Source: Terriglobia bacterium (lineage in GTDB: Bacteria; Acidobacteriota; Terriglobia; Bryobacterales; Bryobacteraceae). From it: DNA of 42,150 nt. The translations under genes and the position numbers were made by a program. Positions 16,856 through 25,055 of the stretch are shown here, one piece after another (position 1 is the first letter of the stretch; every line of letters begins with the position of its first letter). The DNA is taken from positions 1 through 42,150 of the forward strand of contig JAJPIT010000056.1 in assembly GCA_021324615.1 (NCBI GenBank), written 5' to 3'. Below the pieces are notes generated by a model that saw only the letters and a list, made by a program, of their open reading frames with translations, did not search any database and was not told the origin of the DNA.

Positions 16856-19219
16856 GTGGATATGTTCTCGCCGATCTCGCGCCTGCTGGCGGCCTCGCTT
16901 GCGCCCTGTTCCGCGTGGGTGGCCTGCGCCGCTCCGGGCGGCTGCCTGGGCAGCGCGGCGGTCACCAGCTTCCGGCTTTCGGTCCGGCCCGGCGGAAACA
17001 ACAGCCCGGATTGGATTCCGATCCGCGAGGTGAACAATCTCGGCAGCGGGTTCCGCCTGGCGTATCAGCCGATCGAGCTGCCGCCGAACCTGGGCAAGGA
17101 CGCCAAGCTCGCGCTGGTGATGATCCCCAAGGCACGGGACGGGCAGCTCACGGTGCTGGAGCCGCGGCTGGCGGCAAGCTCCACCGAATGGACCTCGCCT
17201 TTTGCCGCAAGCATTGTCCTGGTGGTGTTCGCGCCTCAGGGTCTGGATGAAAAGCGGCTGACCAATCTGGTGACGCGCGACGACAACATGGCGGCGGCGC
17301 TGGCCGATTACGCGGATCAGACGGCGGAGCTCGAATCGGCGCTTCAGCTCGCGCGCGAACTGGAGGATCAGGCCGATGAGGACGCCTCCCGGCCGCCGCG
17401 CCCGATGACGCCCGCCGATCAGGCCGTGCTGGCGCTGGTGCGCGCGCTGAATCCCGCCGTTTCCAGCTACGATCCGCTGGGACTGGGCCGGCGCGCGGGT
17501 CCGGCCACGCTGACCGGCAAGGGAATGGAGGCGTTTTTCGAAAACGCCGGCGGACTTTTTCCCGGCGGCGGCGCCCTGCCGATGGTCAAGCAATGGCTGA
17601 TGCCCGATACCGAGTTTCGCAGCGTGTACGCGATTCCGGCCGAATCCGACGGCATGACGCTGTGCGCCCAGCTCACGCCGCGCCGGGGAAACACCAAAAT
17701 CGCCTACATGTGGGCTTACCGCCTGATCAATGCGGCGGCGCCGCCCGCCGCCATCGGAGGCGAAACGCACGTGCCCATCGGCATGCGCGTCGAGGTGCCG
17801 CTCAAGCTTGAAAAAGCGGCGGACTGGCGGCTGATCGATCATGTTTACGATTGGACGCTCACCGGCGCGGCGCCCCAGCCGCCGATCCATGTGGCGGTGC
17901 GCGGCATCGCGGAGGATCGCGCGCTGCGCATCGATTTGCGGAATTTCCCCGGCGCTCCCGGCGAATATTCGATTGAGGGCCGCTGGGATTGGACGGCGTA
18001 CAAAGTCGCGGGCGCCTTCGCGGTGCATCGTTTCGACGATTTAAAGCTCGCCCAGTTGACGCCGGAATCGCGCGATAAGCTGATCGCGGGCAGCGGGCCG
18101 GTGGACGTCGAGCTGAGCGGCTGCGATTTTTGGTTCATCGAACGCGCGGCGCTGCACCGGCCGGAAAGCGCGCGGCAGATTCCGCTCGATTTGCCGGCGC
18201 ATCCGGCGCGGAACCTGCGGCTGGAGATCGATACCGATGAATTGCACGTGGGACCTTATTTGCTGGCGCTGGCCCGCATCGACGGCGCCACCGCGGAGAT
18301 TCCGCTGCGCCTGCTGCCGCCCAATCCGACGCTGGAGCGCGCGCGGGCCCACGTCGGGGATCGCGAGCAGACCGTGACTTTCCGCGGCACCGCGCTCGAC
18401 CGCTTGCAGTCGCTTTCCTCCGAAGGCGCCGATATCGCGCTGGCGCCGGCGTCCGGTTCGCTGGAGCGCGAAGCGACGGTGCGCCTGCATCCCAATGTAA
18501 AACCGGGCGACGCGTTGGCCCTGGCGGCCAAGGTGGACGGGCTTGCCGGACTGCTGAGATTTCCCGGCGCGCTGCAAATCGCCGGCGCGCGGCCGAAAAT
18601 TCTCGAAGCTAAGGCGTCGCTGCCGGCCGATCCGCCGATCCCCCCGCGGGAGGGCGAAATTCCGGCGGGATCGTGGGCCAGCTTCGCCATCAAGATCGAA
18701 CCCGCCGCGGCGCAGCCGGTCCTGACGCTGGAATGCGCCGAACCGGCGCGAACCGTGCAGGCGGCCCGGCTGCGCGCCGGGGAAAGACAAAACTCGGCCG
18801 AACTGGTTTCCGCCGGCGGCGGCGCGCTCTTCTTATCGCTCGACGCCGGATCGGTGGGCCGTTCCGGATGCACGCTGACCGCCGTCATCGAAACCGAGGC
18901 CTTGGGCAAATCGGATCCGTTCACGCTGGGCAAAGTGGTGCGCCTGCCGCGCATCGAAAGCTTCGCGCTCACCGACGAAAGATCGGGCGACGGCTTCATC
19001 GGCTCGCTAAAGGGATTCGACCTGGAGACCATCGAAAAAACCGGCTGGGACGCGCGCACGGGCGTCGCCGTGCCGGATCTGCCGCGCCCGCTGGCGGGGG
19101 AAGGCGCGCGCCAGTCGCTGCGCATCGTGATGCCGTGGCCGGCGCCGAGCCCCAAGGCTCCGCTGTTTATCTTCCTGCGCGGGGAAACCGAGGGAAGAGC
19201 CACCAAGGTGACGCAATAA
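16856..19219 (+). CDS. Large exported protein of unknown function
   Basis: The 787-residue frame begins at a GTG (16856), or better at the in-frame ATG at 16862 (MFSPISRLLAASLAPCSAWV), which gives a cleaner signal peptide. Cysteines occur near the N-terminus (VACAAPGGCLG), but no exact lipobox is clear. The mature protein is rich in Ala, Pro, Leu and Gly and seems to be built of beta-sandwich-like segments in the C-terminal half (for example PGDALALAAKVDGLAGLLRF). A short helical stretch lies around 150-190. No catalytic motif was recognised. Location is probably periplasmic or outer-surface. It reads away from the zinc-ribbon gene, with 36 bp between the starts. Confidence 0.75.
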   Translation: MDMFSPISRLLAASLAPCSAWVACAAPGGCLGSAAVTSFRLSVRPGGNNSPDWIPIREVNNLGSGFRLAYQPIELPPNLGKDAKLALVMIPKARDGQLTVLEPRLAASSTEWTSPFAASIVLVVFAPQGLDEKRLTNLVTRDDNMAAALADYADQTAELESALQLARELEDQADEDASRPPRPMTPADQAVLALVRALNPAVSSYDPLGLGRRAGPATLTGKGMEAFFENAGGLFPGGGALPMVKQWLMPDTEFRSVYAIPAESDGMTLCAQLTPRRGNTKIAYMWAYRLINAAAPPAAIGGETHVPIGMRVEVPLKLEKAADWRLIDHVYDWTLTGAAPQPPIHVAVRGIAEDRALRIDLRNFPGAPGEYSIEGRWDWTAYKVAGAFAVHRFDDLKLAQLTPESRDKLIAGSGPVDVELSGCDFWFIERAALHRPESARQIPLDLPAHPARNLRLEIDTDELHVGPYLLALARIDGATAEIPLRLLPPNPTLERARAHVGDREQTVTFRGTALDRLQSLSSEGADIALAPASGSLEREATVRLHPNVKPGDALALAAKVDGLAGLLRFPGALQIAGARPKILEAKASLPADPPIPPREGEIPAGSWASFAIKIEPAAAQPVLTLECAEPARTVQAARLRAGERQNSAELVSAGGGALFLSLDAGSVGRSGCTLTAVIETEALGKSDPFTLGKVVRLPRIESFALTDERSGDGFIGSLKGFDLETIEKTGWDARTGVAVPDLPRPLAGEGARQSLRIVMPWPAPSPKAPLFIFLRGETEGRATKVTQ

Positions 19220-19254: not shown

Positions 19255-19602
19255 ATGCAGCCCGCGGAGTTCGATCGGATCGTCGAGCGGGCCCTGCGCC
19301 GCATCCCGGCGCGGTTCCGCAAACGCCTGGAAAACGTCGCCATCGTGGTGGAGCAGGAGCCGCCGCGGCCCGGCCTGCTCGGCTTATATCAGGGCGTGCC
19401 GCTGACCGGGCGCAGCGTGAGCGATTCCTTCCGCATGCCCGACAAAATCACCATCTTCCAGGGGCCGCACGAGCGCGCGGCGCGCGATCTCGCCCAGCTC
19501 GAGCAAATGGTGGCCGATACCGTCTGGCACGAAATCGCCCACTATTTCGGAATGAATGAGGCTCGCGTGCGCCGCGCCGAGCGGAGGCGCGGCCTCCGAT
19601 GA
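19255..19602 (+). CDS. Zincin_1-family metallopeptidase-like protein
   Basis: The 115-residue product has the short zincin layout: N-terminal helices (FDRIVERALRRIPARFRKRL, 6-25), beta strands with VEQEPP, and the zinc site HEIAH in WHEIAHYFGMNE (92-96). The family (PF06262-like) is widespread but mostly uncharacterised, and the third ligand is not certain. No signal peptide; cytoplasmic. The start is the ATG at 19255, 35 nt after the previous stop. Its stop overlaps the start of the ThiE/TenI-like gene by 4 nt (ATGA), so these are coupled. Actual proteolytic activity is inferred from the motif only. Confidence 0.85.
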   Translation: MQPAEFDRIVERALRRIPARFRKRLENVAIVVEQEPPRPGLLGLYQGVPLTGRSVSDSFRMPDKITIFQGPHERAARDLAQLEQMVADTVWHEIAHYFGMNEARVRRAERRRGLR

Positions 19603-20114
19603 TCACCTGCGCGATCACCGACCGGCGCCTGCGCGCGCTCTCAAGCGGCGCCGATTGGCTGCAAATCCGCGATAAGGCGCTCCCGGCGCGCGAGCTGCTG
19701 GAAGTGGTCAGGACCGCGATGCGTTGCCGGCCGAAGGTGATCGTCAATACCCGCATGGATGTCGCGCTCGCCGCGGGCGCGGCGGGATTGCATCTGCCCG
19801 CCGGATCGATTCCGCCCGCGCGCTGGCGGCCCATCGCGCCGCCGGATTTTCTGATCGGCGTCTCCTGCCACAGCGTGGATGAGGTGCGCGCCGCCGAAGC
19901 CGAGGGCGCCGATTATGTCTTTTTTGGGCCGGTTTTTGCGCCGCTTTCGAAAGCGTCGCCGCTTCCGCCGCGCGGGCTGGATGCGCTCGCCGAAGCGGCG
20001 CGGGCGGTGAGAATTCCGGTGCTCGCCCTCGGCGGGATCACGCGCGACAACGCGGCCGCTTGCGCCGCCGCCGGCGCCGCGGGCATCGCCGGCATCTCCC
20101 TTTTCGAGACTTGA
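19599..20114 (+). CDS. thiE: Thiamine phosphate synthase/TenI-like protein
   Basis: The ThiE fold joins the pyrimidine and thiazole phosphates to thiamine phosphate; the related TenI is a thiazole tautomerase. The 171-residue product is a short TIM barrel, below the usual 200-220 residues of ThiE. It has AITDRRL (5-11), LQIRDKALPARELLE, GLHLPAGSIPP, IGVSCHSVDEV, YVFFGPVFAPLSK and LALGGITRDN. The lack of the longer N-terminal part suggests a TenI-type or minimal enzyme; by sequence I cannot choose. It overlaps the metallopeptidase gene by 4 nt. thiL lies about 4 kb further on the same strand, which supports a thiamine role. Confidence 0.8.
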   Translation: MITCAITDRRLRALSSGADWLQIRDKALPARELLEVVRTAMRCRPKVIVNTRMDVALAAGAAGLHLPAGSIPPARWRPIAPPDFLIGVSCHSVDEVRAAEAEGADYVFFGPVFAPLSKASPLPPRGLDALAEAARAVRIPVLALGGITRDNAAACAAAGAAGIAGISLFET

Positions 20115-20128
20115 TAAAATCTGTAACC

Positions 20129-21037
20129 GTGAGCGGCGCCGCCTTGAAACAGGCGTATTCGAGGGAAGAAGCGCTTCGTCTGGCCGGCATTTCCGAGCGC
20201 CAACTGTCCAGTTGGGAGCGCCAAAAGCTGCTCGAACCGGCGGCCCAGTACGGATTCCGCGAGCTGCTGGCGCTGCAAACCCTGGTAAAACTGCGCAGGA
20301 GCCGCGTGGCGCCCGCGCAGATCCGCGCCGCACTCGATGCGCTGCGAAAAACACTGCGCGACGTCGGCGATCCGCTGACCCAGCTCAAACTTTTCGCCGA
20401 TGGCAAGAAGATCCGCGTGGAGATTGACGGCGGGGCGATGGACGCCATGTCCGGCCAGCTTCTGCTGAATTTCGGCGCGAACGATCTCAAGCGCCTGGTG
20501 CAGCTTCCGAACAAGGACGGCGCCGCGGTCGAGCGCGACCGGCGCTTTACGGCCGAACGCTGGTTCCAGCGCGGCCTCGATCTGGAGCAGTCCGGCGCGC
20601 CGGCCGAGGAGATCATCGAAGCGTACCGCAAGGCGGTGGAGCTCGACGAGAAATCGGCGGGCGCGCTGGTCAATCTCGGCACCATTTACTTCAACGCGCG
20701 CCAATTTGCCGAAGCCGAAAGGTATTACCTTCGGGCGCTCGACGCCGACCCGGACTACGCGCTGGCGCACTTCGATCTGGCGAATCTGTACGACGAGCGC
20801 GGCGACCGCAGCCGGGCGCTGAAGCATTACGAAGCCGCGCTGCGCATTGCGCCGAACTACGCCGACGCGCACTACAACATCGCGCTGCTGTATCAGGGAC
20901 AGAACCAGCCGATGAAGGCCGTCCGCCACTGGACCGCTTATTTAAAGCTCGATCCGTCCAGCCACTGGTCGGCGATCGCCCGGCGCGAGCTGGCCAAACT
21001 GCGGCAGGCGGCCGTGGTCCAGGGCAGTGGCAAATAG
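20129..21037 (+). CDS. MerR-type HTH domain fused to TPR repeats
   Basis: The probable start is the GTG at 20129 (MSGAALKQAYSREEALRLAG), giving 302 residues; the open frame reaches back into thiE, and a TTG at 20111 is possible. Residues about 8-70 form a MerR-like winged helix (SREEALRLAGISERQLSSWE, then the wing and LLALQTLVKLRRSRV). A linker with GGAMDAMSGQLLLNF leads to four TPRs (about 145-285), such as ALVNLGTIYFNARQFAEAER and AHYNIALLYQGQNQPMKAVR. A TAAAAT box just before the GTG could be a -10. The combination suggests a DNA-binding sensor whose TPR part binds protein. DUF2760 and Hsp70-like genes follow on the same strand, 35 nt away. Confidence 0.82.
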   Translation: MSGAALKQAYSREEALRLAGISERQLSSWERQKLLEPAAQYGFRELLALQTLVKLRRSRVAPAQIRAALDALRKTLRDVGDPLTQLKLFADGKKIRVEIDGGAMDAMSGQLLLNFGANDLKRLVQLPNKDGAAVERDRRFTAERWFQRGLDLEQSGAPAEEIIEAYRKAVELDEKSAGALVNLGTIYFNARQFAEAERYYLRALDADPDYALAHFDLANLYDERGDRSRALKHYEAALRIAPNYADAHYNIALLYQGQNQPMKAVRHWTAYLKLDPSSHWSAIARRELAKLRQAAVVQGSGK

Positions 21038-21072
21038 CCGCAACCCGATAAAATAAAAACCGAGGATGCTTC

Positions 21073-21573
21073 TTGAATAGAATTGCTCTGGCCTTTCGCA
21101 GTTTTTTTTCGATCCTGTTCCGGGGCTCGCTGGCCGCCGATATCGCCCAGGCTTTTGGATACGTCAAAGCCGCGCCGGTTCGGGTCGCGCCCGCACCGCG
21201 GCAGCCCGGTCCGGCTGAGGGCGCGGTGCAGATACTGGCCATTTTGCAGCGCGACTCGCGCCTGATCGATTTTCTGATGGAGGATATCTCCGGCTACTCC
21301 GACGAACAGGTCGGAGCCGCCGTGCGCGACGTGCAGCAGCAGGCCCGCAAATCGCTGGAGCGCTATCTGCAACTGACTCCGGTGATCGACGGCGTGGAAG
21401 GAACCTACATCAAGGCCGACACCGCGGACGTGAAGCTGATCGGCAACGTTCCGGCCAACGGCAAGGCTCCCGGCGGCCTGTTGCGCCACAAGGGATGGCG
21501 CGCGGCGAAGGTGGATCTGCCCGCCACGCCGGAAGGCAACCTGCTCGCGCCGGCGGAGATCGAAGTCGAGTGA
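21073..21573 (+). CDS. DUF2760 protein associated with Hsp70-like partner
   Basis: The 166-residue product begins at a TTG (21073) behind GAGG at a spacing of 7 (21062-21065). The ATG between them opens a five-codon minigene (ATG CTT CTT GAA TAG) in another frame. The N-terminus MNRIALAFRSFFSILFRGSL is followed by a Pro/Ala-rich linker and the DUF2760 core with AVQILAILQRDSRLIDFLME, DISGYSDEQVGAAVRDVQ and GWRAAKVDLP near the end. The DUF2760 family is known to sit beside Hsp70-like genes; function unknown. Its stop overlaps the next start by 4 nt (GTGA at 21570-21573), so it is translationally coupled to the Hsp70-like gene. Confidence 0.85.
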   Translation: MNRIALAFRSFFSILFRGSLAADIAQAFGYVKAAPVRVAPAPRQPGPAEGAVQILAILQRDSRLIDFLMEDISGYSDEQVGAAVRDVQQQARKSLERYLQLTPVIDGVEGTYIKADTADVKLIGNVPANGKAPGGLLRHKGWRAAKVDLPATPEGNLLAPAEIEVE

Positions 21574-24209
21574 ACCTGGGAATCGATCTCGGCACCACCA
21601 ACTCCGCGCTGGCGTATATCGACCCCCAGGAGGCGGCCGGGGCCGATTATCCCACCATCCGGGTCCTCGAAATCCCGCAGTACGTCGCGCCGGGGCGCAT
21701 CGAACCGCGCCGCACGCTGCCGTCGTTCCTGTATCTGGGCGATCAGGAGTATGTGGGGGTCTTCGCGCGCGAGCAGGGCGCGCTGGTTCCCACCAAAAGC
21801 GTCCATTCGGCCAAGAGCTGGCTGTCCAATCCCGAGGCCGACCGCACGGCGAAGATCCTGCCCTGGGACGCGCAGGAGGGCGGGCGCGTTCTGTCGCCGG
21901 TCGAGGTTTCGACGCGCATTCTGAACCATCTGGCCGAGGCTTGGACCGCACAGCATCACTCGCCCATCGCCGCGCACCATGTTGTGCTGACGGTCCCGGC
22001 CAGCTTCGATGAAGAGGCGCGCGAGCTGACGGTGATGGCCGCGCGCGAGGCGGGAATCGAAAATCTCACTCTGCTTGAAGAGCCGGCCGCCGCGTTTTAT
22101 TCCTGGATCGCCAACGATCTGGCGCGATCGCGGAAAAATCTGTTCGACGGACAGACCGTGCTGGTCTGCGACGTCGGCGGCGGCACCAGCGATTTCACCC
22201 TGATCCGCGTCTCGCGCGAAAACGACCGCATCGATTTCACGCGCACCGCGGTCGGCAAGCATCTGCTGCTGGGCGGCGACAATCTGGATTTGACGCTGGC
22301 CTGGCTGGCGGAAGCCAAGCTCGGCAAATCGCTCTCCATCCGCCAGCGCAGCGGGCTGCGGCGGCAGTGCGCCTCGGCCAAGGAGCGGCTTCTTTCCGAT
22401 CCCCATCTGAAAAGCGTCGAAGTCACCGTGCTCGGCGGCGGATCGGCGCTGGTGGGCGGAACGCTGCGCACGGAGATCCTGCGCCAGGAGGTTCTGGAGC
22501 TCGCGCTGGAAGGTTTTCTTCCCGTGTGCGCGCCGGACGACAAACCCAAGGAGGAAGAGAAAAGCGTGTTTCGCGAGCTGGGCCTGCCCTACGTCGCCGA
22601 TCCCGCGATCACCCGCCACCTCGCCGCGTTTCTTTCAGGCGCCGGCGACGCCAAGCCCGACGCGATTCTCTTCAACGGCGGATTCTTCATCCCCGAAATT
22701 CTGCGCCAGCGCGTGGCCGATGTGATGGAGCATTGGTACGGCCATCGGCCGGTGATCTTGGAAAACCGCGATCTGGATCTGGCCGTTTCCGTGGGCGCCG
22801 CGTACTACTCCTATGTCCGCGCCACGGGCGCGGGATTGCTGGTGCGCGGCGGGCTGCCCCGATCGTATTTCATCGGCGTGGCCGGCGATTCAGGCGCGCT
22901 GCGCACGATGTGCCTGGTTCCGCGCGGCGCCGAGGAAGGCTCCACGGTCGAGCTCGATCCGGGGAATTTGCAACTGATCGCCAACCGGCCGGTGTCGTTT
23001 CGCTTGTACAGCTCCCGCCACCGCGACGGGGACCGTCCCGGCGACATCGTCGAGTTTCCGCCGGAGGCGCCCGACGGCGAGCCGCACTTGCACGCGCCCC
23101 TCAACGCCGTTCTGCGCTTCGGAAAATCGGGCGAGCGCCGCGTTCCGGTGAAGCTCGGCGCGCGCCTGACCGAGGTCGGCACGCTGGAGATCTGGGCCGA
23201 TTCGAAGGAAACCGATCATCGCTGGCGGTTGCAGTTCGAACTGCGCAAGGCCGTTACGCAGGCGCCGCCGCGCCCGGCCGCCGTGGTCAGCGAGGAAGCT
23301 CTCTCGCAAGCCGAAGCGCTGATTCCCGCAGCTTTCGTTGAAACCAGGATCGAGCCGGCGCAACTGCCCGCGCGGCTCGAACAGGCGCTCGGCCTGGGAC
23401 GCAACTCCTGGCCGGTGGCGGCGATTCGCAAGCTCGCCGATCGCATGCTGGAGGTCGCCGACGGCCGCAAGCGCAGTCCCGCGCACGAGCTGCGCTGGTT
23501 GAATCTGTGCGGCTTCTGCCTGCGTCCCGGCTTCGGTTTCCCCGGCGACGATTTCCGCATCGAGCTGGCGCGCCGCGTCTACGCCGGCGGCCTGCAATTC
23601 GCCAATCAGGTGCAGAACGAGATCGAATGGTGGATCTTCTGGGGGCGCGTGGCGGGCGGGTTGAACCGCAACCAGCAGACCGACATTTTTCAGCGTCTTT
23701 CCCCCACGCTTCTGCCGCGCTCGCAGAAGCGCCCGCGCGTCAATCCCAGCCTGCTGCGGGAAATGTGGCGCACCGCGGCGAGCCTGGAATTGCTCCCGAT
23801 TCAAACCAAAACGCAGCTCGGCGATGAGCTGGTGGCGAAAATTAAAAAAGGCGATTTCGTCGAAACCGGCCTGTGGTGCCTGGCGCGCCTCGGCGCGCGC
23901 AAGCTTTTCTACGGACCCATCAATCAGGTGGTGCCGGCATCCACGGCGGCGCGCTGGATCGACGCCATCATCAAACTGGAGCACGCCGAAGACGCCGTGG
24001 CCGCCCTGGCGCGCCGCACCGGCGACGCCGCGCGGGATCTGCCTCCGGCGGCCCTCGATCTGGTGCGCCGCGCCTTTCCCGGTCTTGATCTGGAAGCCGA
24101 ACCGCGGGATCCGCTGGCCGCCATGGGCAAGGTGTTCGGCGAGGAGCTTCCGGCCGGCCTCATCCTGGAATCGGACGGCGCCAGCTTGCAGCCCGCGCAG
24201 GGTTTATAG
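21570..24209 (+). CDS. Large Hsp70-like protein with C-terminal extension (DUF3731-type)
   Basis: The product has 879 residues, much longer than DnaK (about 640). It starts at the GTG at 21570 (MNLGIDLGTTNSALAYIDPQ). The nucleotide-binding domain runs to about 420. Phosphate-1 is IDLGTTNS (5-12) and phosphate-2 is VCDVGGGTSDFTLI (199-212). The adenosine-binding loop resembles ILFNGGFFIP (366-375) instead of the usual GGSTRIP. The region about 420-620 is beta-rich; the final about 260 residues are helical, with WWIFWGRVAGGLNRNQQTDI, a DUF3731-like region. It lacks a DnaK EEVD-like tail and no dnaJ or grpE lies near. It is coupled to DUF2760 by a 4-nt overlap. Probably a cytosolic ATPase acting with DUF2760; its client is unknown. 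Confidence 0.88.
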   Translation: MNLGIDLGTTNSALAYIDPQEAAGADYPTIRVLEIPQYVAPGRIEPRRTLPSFLYLGDQEYVGVFAREQGALVPTKSVHSAKSWLSNPEADRTAKILPWDAQEGGRVLSPVEVSTRILNHLAEAWTAQHHSPIAAHHVVLTVPASFDEEARELTVMAAREAGIENLTLLEEPAAAFYSWIANDLARSRKNLFDGQTVLVCDVGGGTSDFTLIRVSRENDRIDFTRTAVGKHLLLGGDNLDLTLAWLAEAKLGKSLSIRQRSGLRRQCASAKERLLSDPHLKSVEVTVLGGGSALVGGTLRTEILRQEVLELALEGFLPVCAPDDKPKEEEKSVFRELGLPYVADPAITRHLAAFLSGAGDAKPDAILFNGGFFIPEILRQRVADVMEHWYGHRPVILENRDLDLAVSVGAAYYSYVRATGAGLLVRGGLPRSYFIGVAGDSGALRTMCLVPRGAEEGSTVELDPGNLQLIANRPVSFRLYSSRHRDGDRPGDIVEFPPEAPDGEPHLHAPLNAVLRFGKSGERRVPVKLGARLTEVGTLEIWADSKETDHRWRLQFELRKAVTQAPPRPAAVVSEEALSQAEALIPAAFVETRIEPAQLPARLEQALGLGRNSWPVAAIRKLADRMLEVADGRKRSPAHELRWLNLCGFCLRPGFGFPGDDFRIELARRVYAGGLQFANQVQNEIEWWIFWGRVAGGLNRNQQTDIFQRLSPTLLPRSQKRPRVNPSLLREMWRTAASLELLPIQTKTQLGDELVAKIKKGDFVETGLWCLARLGARKLFYGPINQVVPASTAARWIDAIIKLEHAEDAVAALARRTGDAARDLPPAALDLVRRAFPGLDLEAEPRDPLAAMGKVFGEELPAGLILESDGASLQPAQGL

Positions 24210-24221
24210 CCGGGCTCGGTT

Positions 24222-25055
24222 GTGAACGAACGGGAGCTGATCGAACGCATCCGCAGCAGCGCCGGCCGCACGCCGCTGGTGCTCGGCATTGGCGACGATT
24301 GCGCCATTTTCCGGCCGCGCGCCGGCGAGGATCTTCTGTTCACCACCGATCAGATGATCGAAGGCGCGCACTTCACCCGGTCCCTGCCGGCCGAGGCGGC
24401 CGGTGAGCGCGCGCTGGCGCGGAGTTTGAGCGACATCGCCGCGATGGGCGGCGAGCCGCGCTTGTGCACCGTCGCACTCGCGGTCCCCGGAAACCAGGCG
24501 CGATGGATCGAGAGGTTTTTCACCGGCCTGTTGCGGCTGGCCAAGCGGACCGGCACCGCGCTCGCCGGCGGCGATCTGGCGCGTTCGGAAAAAATTTATT
24601 GCGACGTGATGGTCTGCGGCGCGGTTCCGCGAGGCCAGGCTCTGCGGCGCGACGGCGCGCGTCCCGGCGACGCCATCTTCGTCTCCGGCCGCCTGGGAAA
24701 ATCCTGGACGCGGCCGATCCGGCCCCGGCTGGCGCTCGGCGTCGCGCTGCGCGGTCGCGCGACGTCGTGCATCGATTTAAGCGACGGCCTGTCGCTCGAT
24801 CTGCACCGGCTCTGCGCCGCTTCCGGCGCCGCCGCCGAGATCAACCGCGTTCCGGTGGCCCCGCAATCCACCCTTGAGCGCGCGCTCCACGGCGGCGAGG
24901 ACTACGAGCTGCTCTTCACGCTGCCGCCCCATGGCATGCCGCCGCGCGGGAGCTGGCGCATCGGAACCATCGTGCGCGGCGCGCCCGGCGCGGTGAACTT
25001 CCACGGGCGCCCCCTGCCGCCGCGCGGCTACGATCACTTCACCCGGCGCCCCTGA
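24222..25055 (+). CDS. thiL: Thiamine-monophosphate kinase
   Basis: ThiL phosphorylates thiamine monophosphate to thiamine diphosphate. The 277-residue product is about 50 residues shorter than usual, mainly in the C-terminal domain, where loops are trimmed; the ends look natural. Motifs are LGIGDDCAIFRPRAGED (metal-binding Asp pair), FTTDQMIEGAHFT, DIAAMGGEPRLCTVALAVPG, ALAGGDLARS, CIDLSDGLSLDLHRLC and ALHGGEDYELLFTLP. The GTG start at 24222 lies 12 nt after the Hsp70-like stop. Its last 22 bp overlap the end of the convergent maf gene. Co-transcription with the chaperone module is likely, but a functional link is not evident. Confidence 0.9.
   Translation: MNERELIERIRSSAGRTPLVLGIGDDCAIFRPRAGEDLLFTTDQMIEGAHFTRSLPAEAAGERALARSLSDIAAMGGEPRLCTVALAVPGNQARWIERFFTGLLRLAKRTGTALAGGDLARSEKIYCDVMVCGAVPRGQALRRDGARPGDAIFVSGRLGKSWTRPIRPRLALGVALRGRATSCIDLSDGLSLDLHRLCAASGAAAEINRVPVAPQSTLERALHGGEDYELLFTLPPHGMPPRGSWRIGTIVRGAPGAVNFHGRPLPPRGYDHFTRRP

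Follow-up and report, generated by a model that had tools for sequence, protein, structure and literature searches.

Gene content and layout of the locus

The stretch of DNA analysed here (the window, 42,150 nucleotides) covers positions 1 to 42,150 of contig JAJPIT010000056.1 from the draft genome of a Terriglobia bacterium of the family Bryobacteraceae (GCA_021324615.1; 3.94 Mb, 127 contigs, 99% complete), and carries on its forward strand three closely spaced genes. These encode a protein with a MerR-like helix-turn-helix and tetratricopeptide repeats (hereafter HTH-TPR), a DUF2760 protein, and an atypical Hsp70 (hereafter HspB). An initial annotation, made from the letters alone, had described them as a compact chaperone module in which the MerR-TPR protein would be a chaperone-controlled switch. 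Gene calls and Pfam agree with the three genes and the domains that it assigned, and likewise give an Hsp70 of 879 residues whose GTG start shares 4 nt (GTGA) with the end of the DUF2760 gene.

20129..21037, forward strand: HTH-TPR, 302 aa; MerR-like helix-turn-helix, conserved middle part and TPRs (Pfam); judged a neighbour outside the module
21073..21573, forward strand: DUF2760 protein (PF10816), 166 aa, TTG start (Pfam, 114.9 bits)
21570..24209, forward strand: HspB, 879 aa, GTG start; Hsp70 nucleotide-binding domain, beta sandwich and DUF3731 (Pfam, residue conservation)
22863..23231, forward strand: substrate-binding beta sandwich of HspB, about residues 432–554 (AlphaFold2 (AF2) model, Foldseek)
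23292..24074, forward strand: predicted armadillo/HEAT-like helical solenoid of HspB, about residues 575–835

HspB also carries DUF3731 (PF12531, Pfam title 'DNA-K related protein'), a domain that the initial annotation had left unnamed; for DUF3731 and DUF2760 (PF10816), both window proteins score far above the curated cut-offs. A literature search covering few subscription journals found no paper naming either domain. Homologues of the window genes, at about 51–94% identity, support the coding reading and exclude a chance set of open reading frames. From a thiE-like gene upstream to a thiL-like gene downstream, the stretch is spaced like one operon, with gaps of 14 nt (thiE-like to HTH-TPR), 35 nt (HTH-TPR to DUF2760), −4 nt (DUF2760 to HspB) and 12 nt (HspB to thiL-like).

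DUF2760, HspA and HspB form a conserved unit

The DUF2760 and HspB genes belong to a conserved unit, DUF2760-HspA-HspB, in which HspA is a second Hsp70 and HspB is the Hsp70 bearing DUF3731; the window holds a reduced variant in which HspA is missing between the other two. The relevant partner in the unit is thus HspA, not the MerR-TPR gene, which corrects the unit as first proposed. We surveyed the best 80 of 553 matching loci, whose titles are mostly Bryobacteraceae, Bryobacterales, Terriglobia or Acidobacteria, and gene distances in 100 genomes of the family; the two surveys overlap partly (for example, L104 appears to come from G187 and L094 from G290) and are not independent.

Among the 100 family genomes, DUF3731 was found in 95 and DUF2760 in 97. 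Genes for DUF2760 and HspB lie on the same strand within 8 kb, our definition of linkage, in 83 of the 93 genomes with both, and in 83 of 83 when both are on one contig, which bears out the earlier claim that DUF2760 and the Hsp70 belong together. The other ten genomes carry the two genes on different contigs, cases that may partly be broken assemblies; at least in G294 and G295 the separation looks true, since no short contig ends close to either gene. The distance survey used one best match per genome with coordinates entered by hand. It treats G251 (DUF3731 split in two) and G280 and G300 (no strong HTH-TPR match) as missing, and leaves out a second DUF3731 fragment of G276, a sub-cut-off second DUF2760 of G300 and a weaker DUF2760 piece of G289; G297 is counted as lacking DUF3731, yet has a truncated HspB at its contig end.

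In all 80 loci, which were selected by DUF2760, an Hsp70 gene begins −4 to 101 nt after the DUF2760 gene. This following gene, as counted by tblastn, is HspA in 57 loci and HspB in 23. Locus L120 (Bryobacterales bacterium F-183, a nearly complete genome by its title) has the order DUF2760-HspA-HspB-thiL and carries HTH-TPR elsewhere. Gene calls within the loci come from a simple codon-model caller; it called HspA wrongly in L073 and L083 and gave a single gene in L066. Since HspA sits between them, the DUF2760 and DUF3731 matches are about 3.5–3.8 kb apart in most relatives, as against 1.9–2.0 kb in the short form. The genome of the window does encode HspA, on another contig (G000:C22:774-2450, 558 aa, 63–69% identical to family HspAs); among 24 genomes that have the two-gene form, 11 carry HspA elsewhere, and the draft assemblies of the other 13 gave no HspA match.

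The three-gene order extends beyond the family. DUF2760-HspA-HspB is annotated on Bradyrhizobium and Comamonadaceae plasmids, with DUF3731 located there by tblastn; codon-model gene calls also give it for a Caballeronia plasmid, where DUF3731 is matched too, and for two Acidobacteriota genomes from another family (L195, L196). In a third such genome (L194) the contig ends within the gene that follows HspA. Across a phylum sample of 199 genomes, DUF2760 occurs in six (five above cut-off); those that belong to the class are all from the genus of the window. A second Hsp70 set that is common in the family (95–97 of 100 genomes), and that also occurs on proteobacterial plasmids, has been little studied.

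The module behaves as a separable cassette. Two genomes in which neither Hsp70 was found (G207, G316) have HTH-TPR followed directly by thiL, with a divergent feoB on the other side, plus feoA in G316; in three other loci (L126, L150, L173), the module is located between these same HTH-TPR/feo-side genes and thiL.

Several variants accompany the unit. G207 and G316, of genus g121 (loci L080 and L081), retain a divergent DUF2760 (67.7 and 70.5 bits). Two small genes lie between HspA and HspB in a genome of genus g137 (G254; L077:9053-10649), and their products resemble PIN-domain (VapC-type) proteins by eye. A plasmid of Candidatus Thiodictyon (NZ_CP020372.1; L091:8698-11216) carries DUF2760-HspA with no HspB annotated nearby, in a stretch with annotated genes for anti-phage functions, a VapC toxin and a TIR-domain protein. 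A link to defence was considered and dropped: PADLOC gave only weak partial matches for four of the six proteins tried, and none for DUF2760. The AF2 model of the window's DUF2760 protein has a mean predicted local distance difference test score of 85, and a hydrophobic helix is predicted at its N terminus (residues 3–17).

HspB combines an Hsp70 engine with a predicted solenoid

HspB pairs an Hsp70 nucleotide-binding domain (Pfam 74.7 bits, residues 3–281) with a C-terminal DUF3731 (222.7 bits, residues 636–866). Like canonical DnaK, it has the Hsp70 nucleotide fold. Six catalytic positions were compared with DnaK (Asp, Lys, Glu, Asp, Thr, Asp), and all are retained in 56 of 56 HspB and 49 of 49 HspA proteins. 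Also shared is the substrate-binding beta sandwich, which has 12 strands in the AF2 model and matches the substrate-binding domains of BiP and DnaK in Foldseek (E 1.3e-4 to about 1e-3, probability 1.00).

Unlike DnaK, of which the genome has its own copy elsewhere, HspB carries no DVLLLD-type interdomain linker (0 of 56 HspB and 0 of 49 HspA, present in the genome's own DnaK), no GGxTRxP motif and no helical lid. The changed adenosine loop pointed out by the initial annotation is real, VGGSTRIP of the genome's DnaK reading FNGGFFIP in the window, and is a trait of the HspB family, at least 51 of the 56 proteins having NGGFF(I/M)P. A DnaK-type alpha-helical lid was not seen in HspB by Pfam or in the AF2 model, DUF3731 standing in its place, and an armadillo-like solenoid is predicted to replace the lid; HspA stops just past the beta domain, without a lid. 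Against the NCBIfam DnaK equivalog, HspB scores 78 bits (cut-off 822.55).

DnaJ and GrpE matches were absent from the contig of the window and all fell on three others (C113, C25, C46), in keeping with the earlier remark that no dnaJ or grpE is adjacent. Because two DnaJ genes, one further J-domain match and grpE are encoded elsewhere in the genome, J-protein and GrpE help for HspB may be provided in trans. On contig C25 (20916-21592), grpE has a second J-domain match as its neighbour.

Taken together, a reading emerges that we hold to be reasonably probable: the locus is a reduced DUF2760-HspA-HspB module that has lost its middle gene to another contig, MerR-TPR is an independent, older neighbour, and HspB is an ATP-driven, client-binding chaperone equipped with the solenoid and with DUF2760 as a cofactor. 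HspB, with HspA where present, would bind and release peptide clients by ATP hydrolysis, in a cycle that would run without a dedicated J-protein or GrpE. The DUF3731 solenoid, if the model is right, would stand in for the lid and perhaps for GrpE too, packing on the clamp or on the nucleotide domain. DUF2760 would be the dedicated cofactor, and might conceivably bring the chaperone to a membrane through its N-terminal hydrophobic helix.

The same architecture could instead describe a regulator or an assembly ATPase that grips one partner with its solenoid and does not fold clients, a role that we consider somewhat unlikely. The missing linker and lid and the altered adenine motif are consistent with it, as is the best NCBIfam match of HspB, the model for HscA, a specialised Hsp70, though that match reaches 97.4 bits against a cut-off of 620; the retained beta sandwich, with its resemblance to BiP and DnaK, and the six catalytic residues argue for a client-binding chaperone.

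A stronger form of the chaperone reading, in which the solenoid is a built-in armadillo-type exchange or lid domain, HspA and HspB cycle without any J-protein or GrpE, and DUF2760 acts as an adaptor, seems quite unlikely to us as a whole. The eukaryotic exchange factors HspBP1, Sil1 and Fes1 provide a possible likeness, a solenoid of ~260 residues that deals with Hsp70 (2015 review, PMC4753570); unlike theirs, the solenoid here is fused to the Hsp70, is known from a predicted model and has zero PDB sequence matches at E up to 1. That review gives GrpE as the only known bacterial type of nucleotide exchange factor. Measured against it, a built-in exchange domain would, if true, be the first bacterial Hsp70 exchange principle besides GrpE, and an Hsp70 with a predicted armadillo-like solenoid for a lid would make the GrpE-only statement directly testable.

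HTH-TPR is probably an older neighbour of the module

The initial annotation had inferred that the MerR-TPR gene is a third member of the unit and had proposed conserved adjacency of the three genes as a check; the genomes surveyed do not support that membership. We judge HTH-TPR to be an older, independent neighbour. Of 120 genomes from the order, 118 have a strong HTH-TPR match (E at most 5e-50), among them all 20 from outside the family, where DUF2760 and DUF3731 were not found; the match begins at residue 82 in G316 and at residue 155 in G308 (contig end), where the helix-turn-helix part is thus not seen. A profile of its N-terminal part matches in 49 of the 199 genomes of the phylum sample, among them all 21 of its own class; none of the 19 class-mates outside the genus has a DUF2760 match.

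Within the family, HTH-TPR lies within 600 bp of DUF2760, our definition of adjacency, in only 19 of 95 genomes with both, spread across 11 of 38 genera; 15 further genomes have it on the DUF2760 strand beyond 600 bp and within 15 kb. The loci survey gives 22 adjacent cases among 75 loci with at least 1 kb of upstream sequence. On an HspB tree of 56 rows (17 adjacent, 37 separate, 2 without a label), adjacency changes 12 times as against 14.6 times when shuffled, and 34 of 500 shuffles are as low as that observed. Adjacency therefore decays nearly at random on this tree, and we read it as an ancestral neighbourhood that is being lost without strong selection for keeping it.

HTH-TPR also keeps other company: feoA/feoB, on the opposite strand and divergent, in many loci that were examined in the family, thiE in the genus of the window, and a zinc-ribbon-like gene plus a HAD hydrolase in four of seven loci of another family of the order, one protein of each neighbour group having been searched.

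The domains of HTH-TPR themselves leave its biochemical role less plain. Its MerR_1 match (23.4 bits, residues 10–71) is barely above the cut-off of 21.6, and is followed, at about residues 178–282, by several TPRs (TPR_1, 78.8 bits). The part in between (residues about 86–116; window 20384-20476) has no Pfam name, and is conserved, with the consensus KMEAxSGQLLLDF in relatives. The weak match, and a domain about six residues shorter than GlnR at the presumed position of the wing, would suit a MerR fold whose target is another protein, possibly an Hsp70, and not DNA, as with CbpM in chaperone control; the MerR-like fold of CbpM, without DNA-binding residues, binds and inhibits the J-domain of CbpA (PMC4063869). 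We find this distinctly improbable: Trp and Glu in the recognition-helix region (alignment W24 and E25) are nearly invariant, HTH-TPR is present in genomes where HspA and HspB were not found and, unlike CbpM, it bears TPRs, has no adjoining J-protein gene and is generally unlinked to a chaperone gene.

Upstream elements and control of the module

A promoter-like element, GATAAAAT, occurs upstream of both HTH-TPR and DUF2760:

20113..20120, forward strand: GATAAAAT, promoter-like element ending 8 nt before the HTH-TPR start codon; as TGATAAAAT, of extended −10 type
21047..21054, forward strand: GATAAAAT, promoter-like element ending 18 nt before the DUF2760 start codon

The window has three copies of GATAAAAT as against 0.27 expected. 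Such a shared element is what one would look for if the MerR-TPR protein sensed Hsp70 or its clients through the TPRs and switched the DUF2760-Hsp70 genes, in the way of HspR with DnaK, a precedent for coupling a MerR protein to chaperones (PMC2687793). Together with gaps as short as those of an operon (35 nt and −4 nt) and an adjacency that is far above the level of scattered genes and, with its spread over 11 genera, probably ancestral to the family, it weighs against our separating HTH-TPR from the module. The helix-turn-helix profile also matches the MerR-family proteins GlnR (E 0.0086) and CarH (E 0.059), if weakly, and an extended −10-like pattern, TGnTAnnnT, which is frequent close to the start codon of HTH-TPR genes (30 of 51 versus 71 of 969 other genes), precedes 25 of 92 DUF2760 genes and 0 of 128 Hsp genes.

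We nonetheless regard such a switch as very unlikely. Besides the retention of HTH-TPR in genomes without the module and the nearly random loss of adjacency, GATAAAAT precedes the two genes together only in the window and in the nearest relative, which is represented twice (L075, L094), and was rejected as a common operator on that ground. A different hexamer, TATCCT, lies about 20 nt before the start of 49 of 92 DUF2760 genes, compared with 18 of 968 other genes, 3 of 128 Hsp genes and 0 of 51 HTH-TPR genes. Because TATCCT marks DUF2760 and not HTH-TPR, and the window alone, with its nearest relative, shares GATAAAAT, these patterns suggest that the two genes are separately promoted in much of the family. 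TATCCT (for example in L084, L089 and L150) is perhaps an unusual type of promoter; no conserved −35 was seen with it. Docking of TPRs on a C-terminal EEVD, considered as an anchor between HTH-TPR and HspB, was rejected, 0 of 56 HspB proteins ending in this motif. A search for a HAIR-type operator, tolerating as many as 3 mismatches, gave 0 matches in the window (chance expectation 0.49), and a sigma-70 scan gave one promoter-like site (21027-21054) as against 0.9 expected; neither scan gave anything firm for shared regulation.

The resemblance to HspR-DnaK thus comes down to a MerR-type gene near an Hsp70 gene. HTH-TPR differs in carrying TPRs and in its weak MerR match, and no HspR match is among the NCBIfam matches listed (25 of 33). 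The likeliest chaperone-sensing MerR protein here is the HspR-like one encoded behind dnaK-dnaJ, whose score of 103.9 bits is just below the cut-off of 105. That 126-aa gene follows dnaK-dnaJ on another contig (L180:5605-9148; G000:C113).

Coupling of MerR-TPR to the module only in those lineages that keep the genes adjacent has a slim chance, the 19 genomes from 11 genera being set against adjacent and separate genomes that intermingle within close clades, the genus of the window included, and against TATCCT before DUF2760 in both classes (8 of 21 adjacent, 32 of 47 separate).

Neighbouring genes

Two genes with thiamine-related matches flank the three genes:

19599..20114, forward strand: thiE/tenI-like gene, 5' neighbour of HTH-TPR in the genus of the window (Pfam TMP-TENI, 149.8 bits)
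24222..25055, forward strand: thiL-like gene (AIRS), frequent neighbour 3' of HspB (Pfam AIRS, 86.3 bits)

The thiE/tenI-like gene scores 115.4 bits against NCBIfam thiE, below the cut-off of 145.1. The thiL-like gene follows HspB in 32 of the 80 loci, again counted by tblastn. Further upstream in the window (16856-19219), before a zincin-like gene, lies a gene for a 787-aa protein that has zero Pfam matches at E up to 1 and is conserved in the close relatives L050 and L075.

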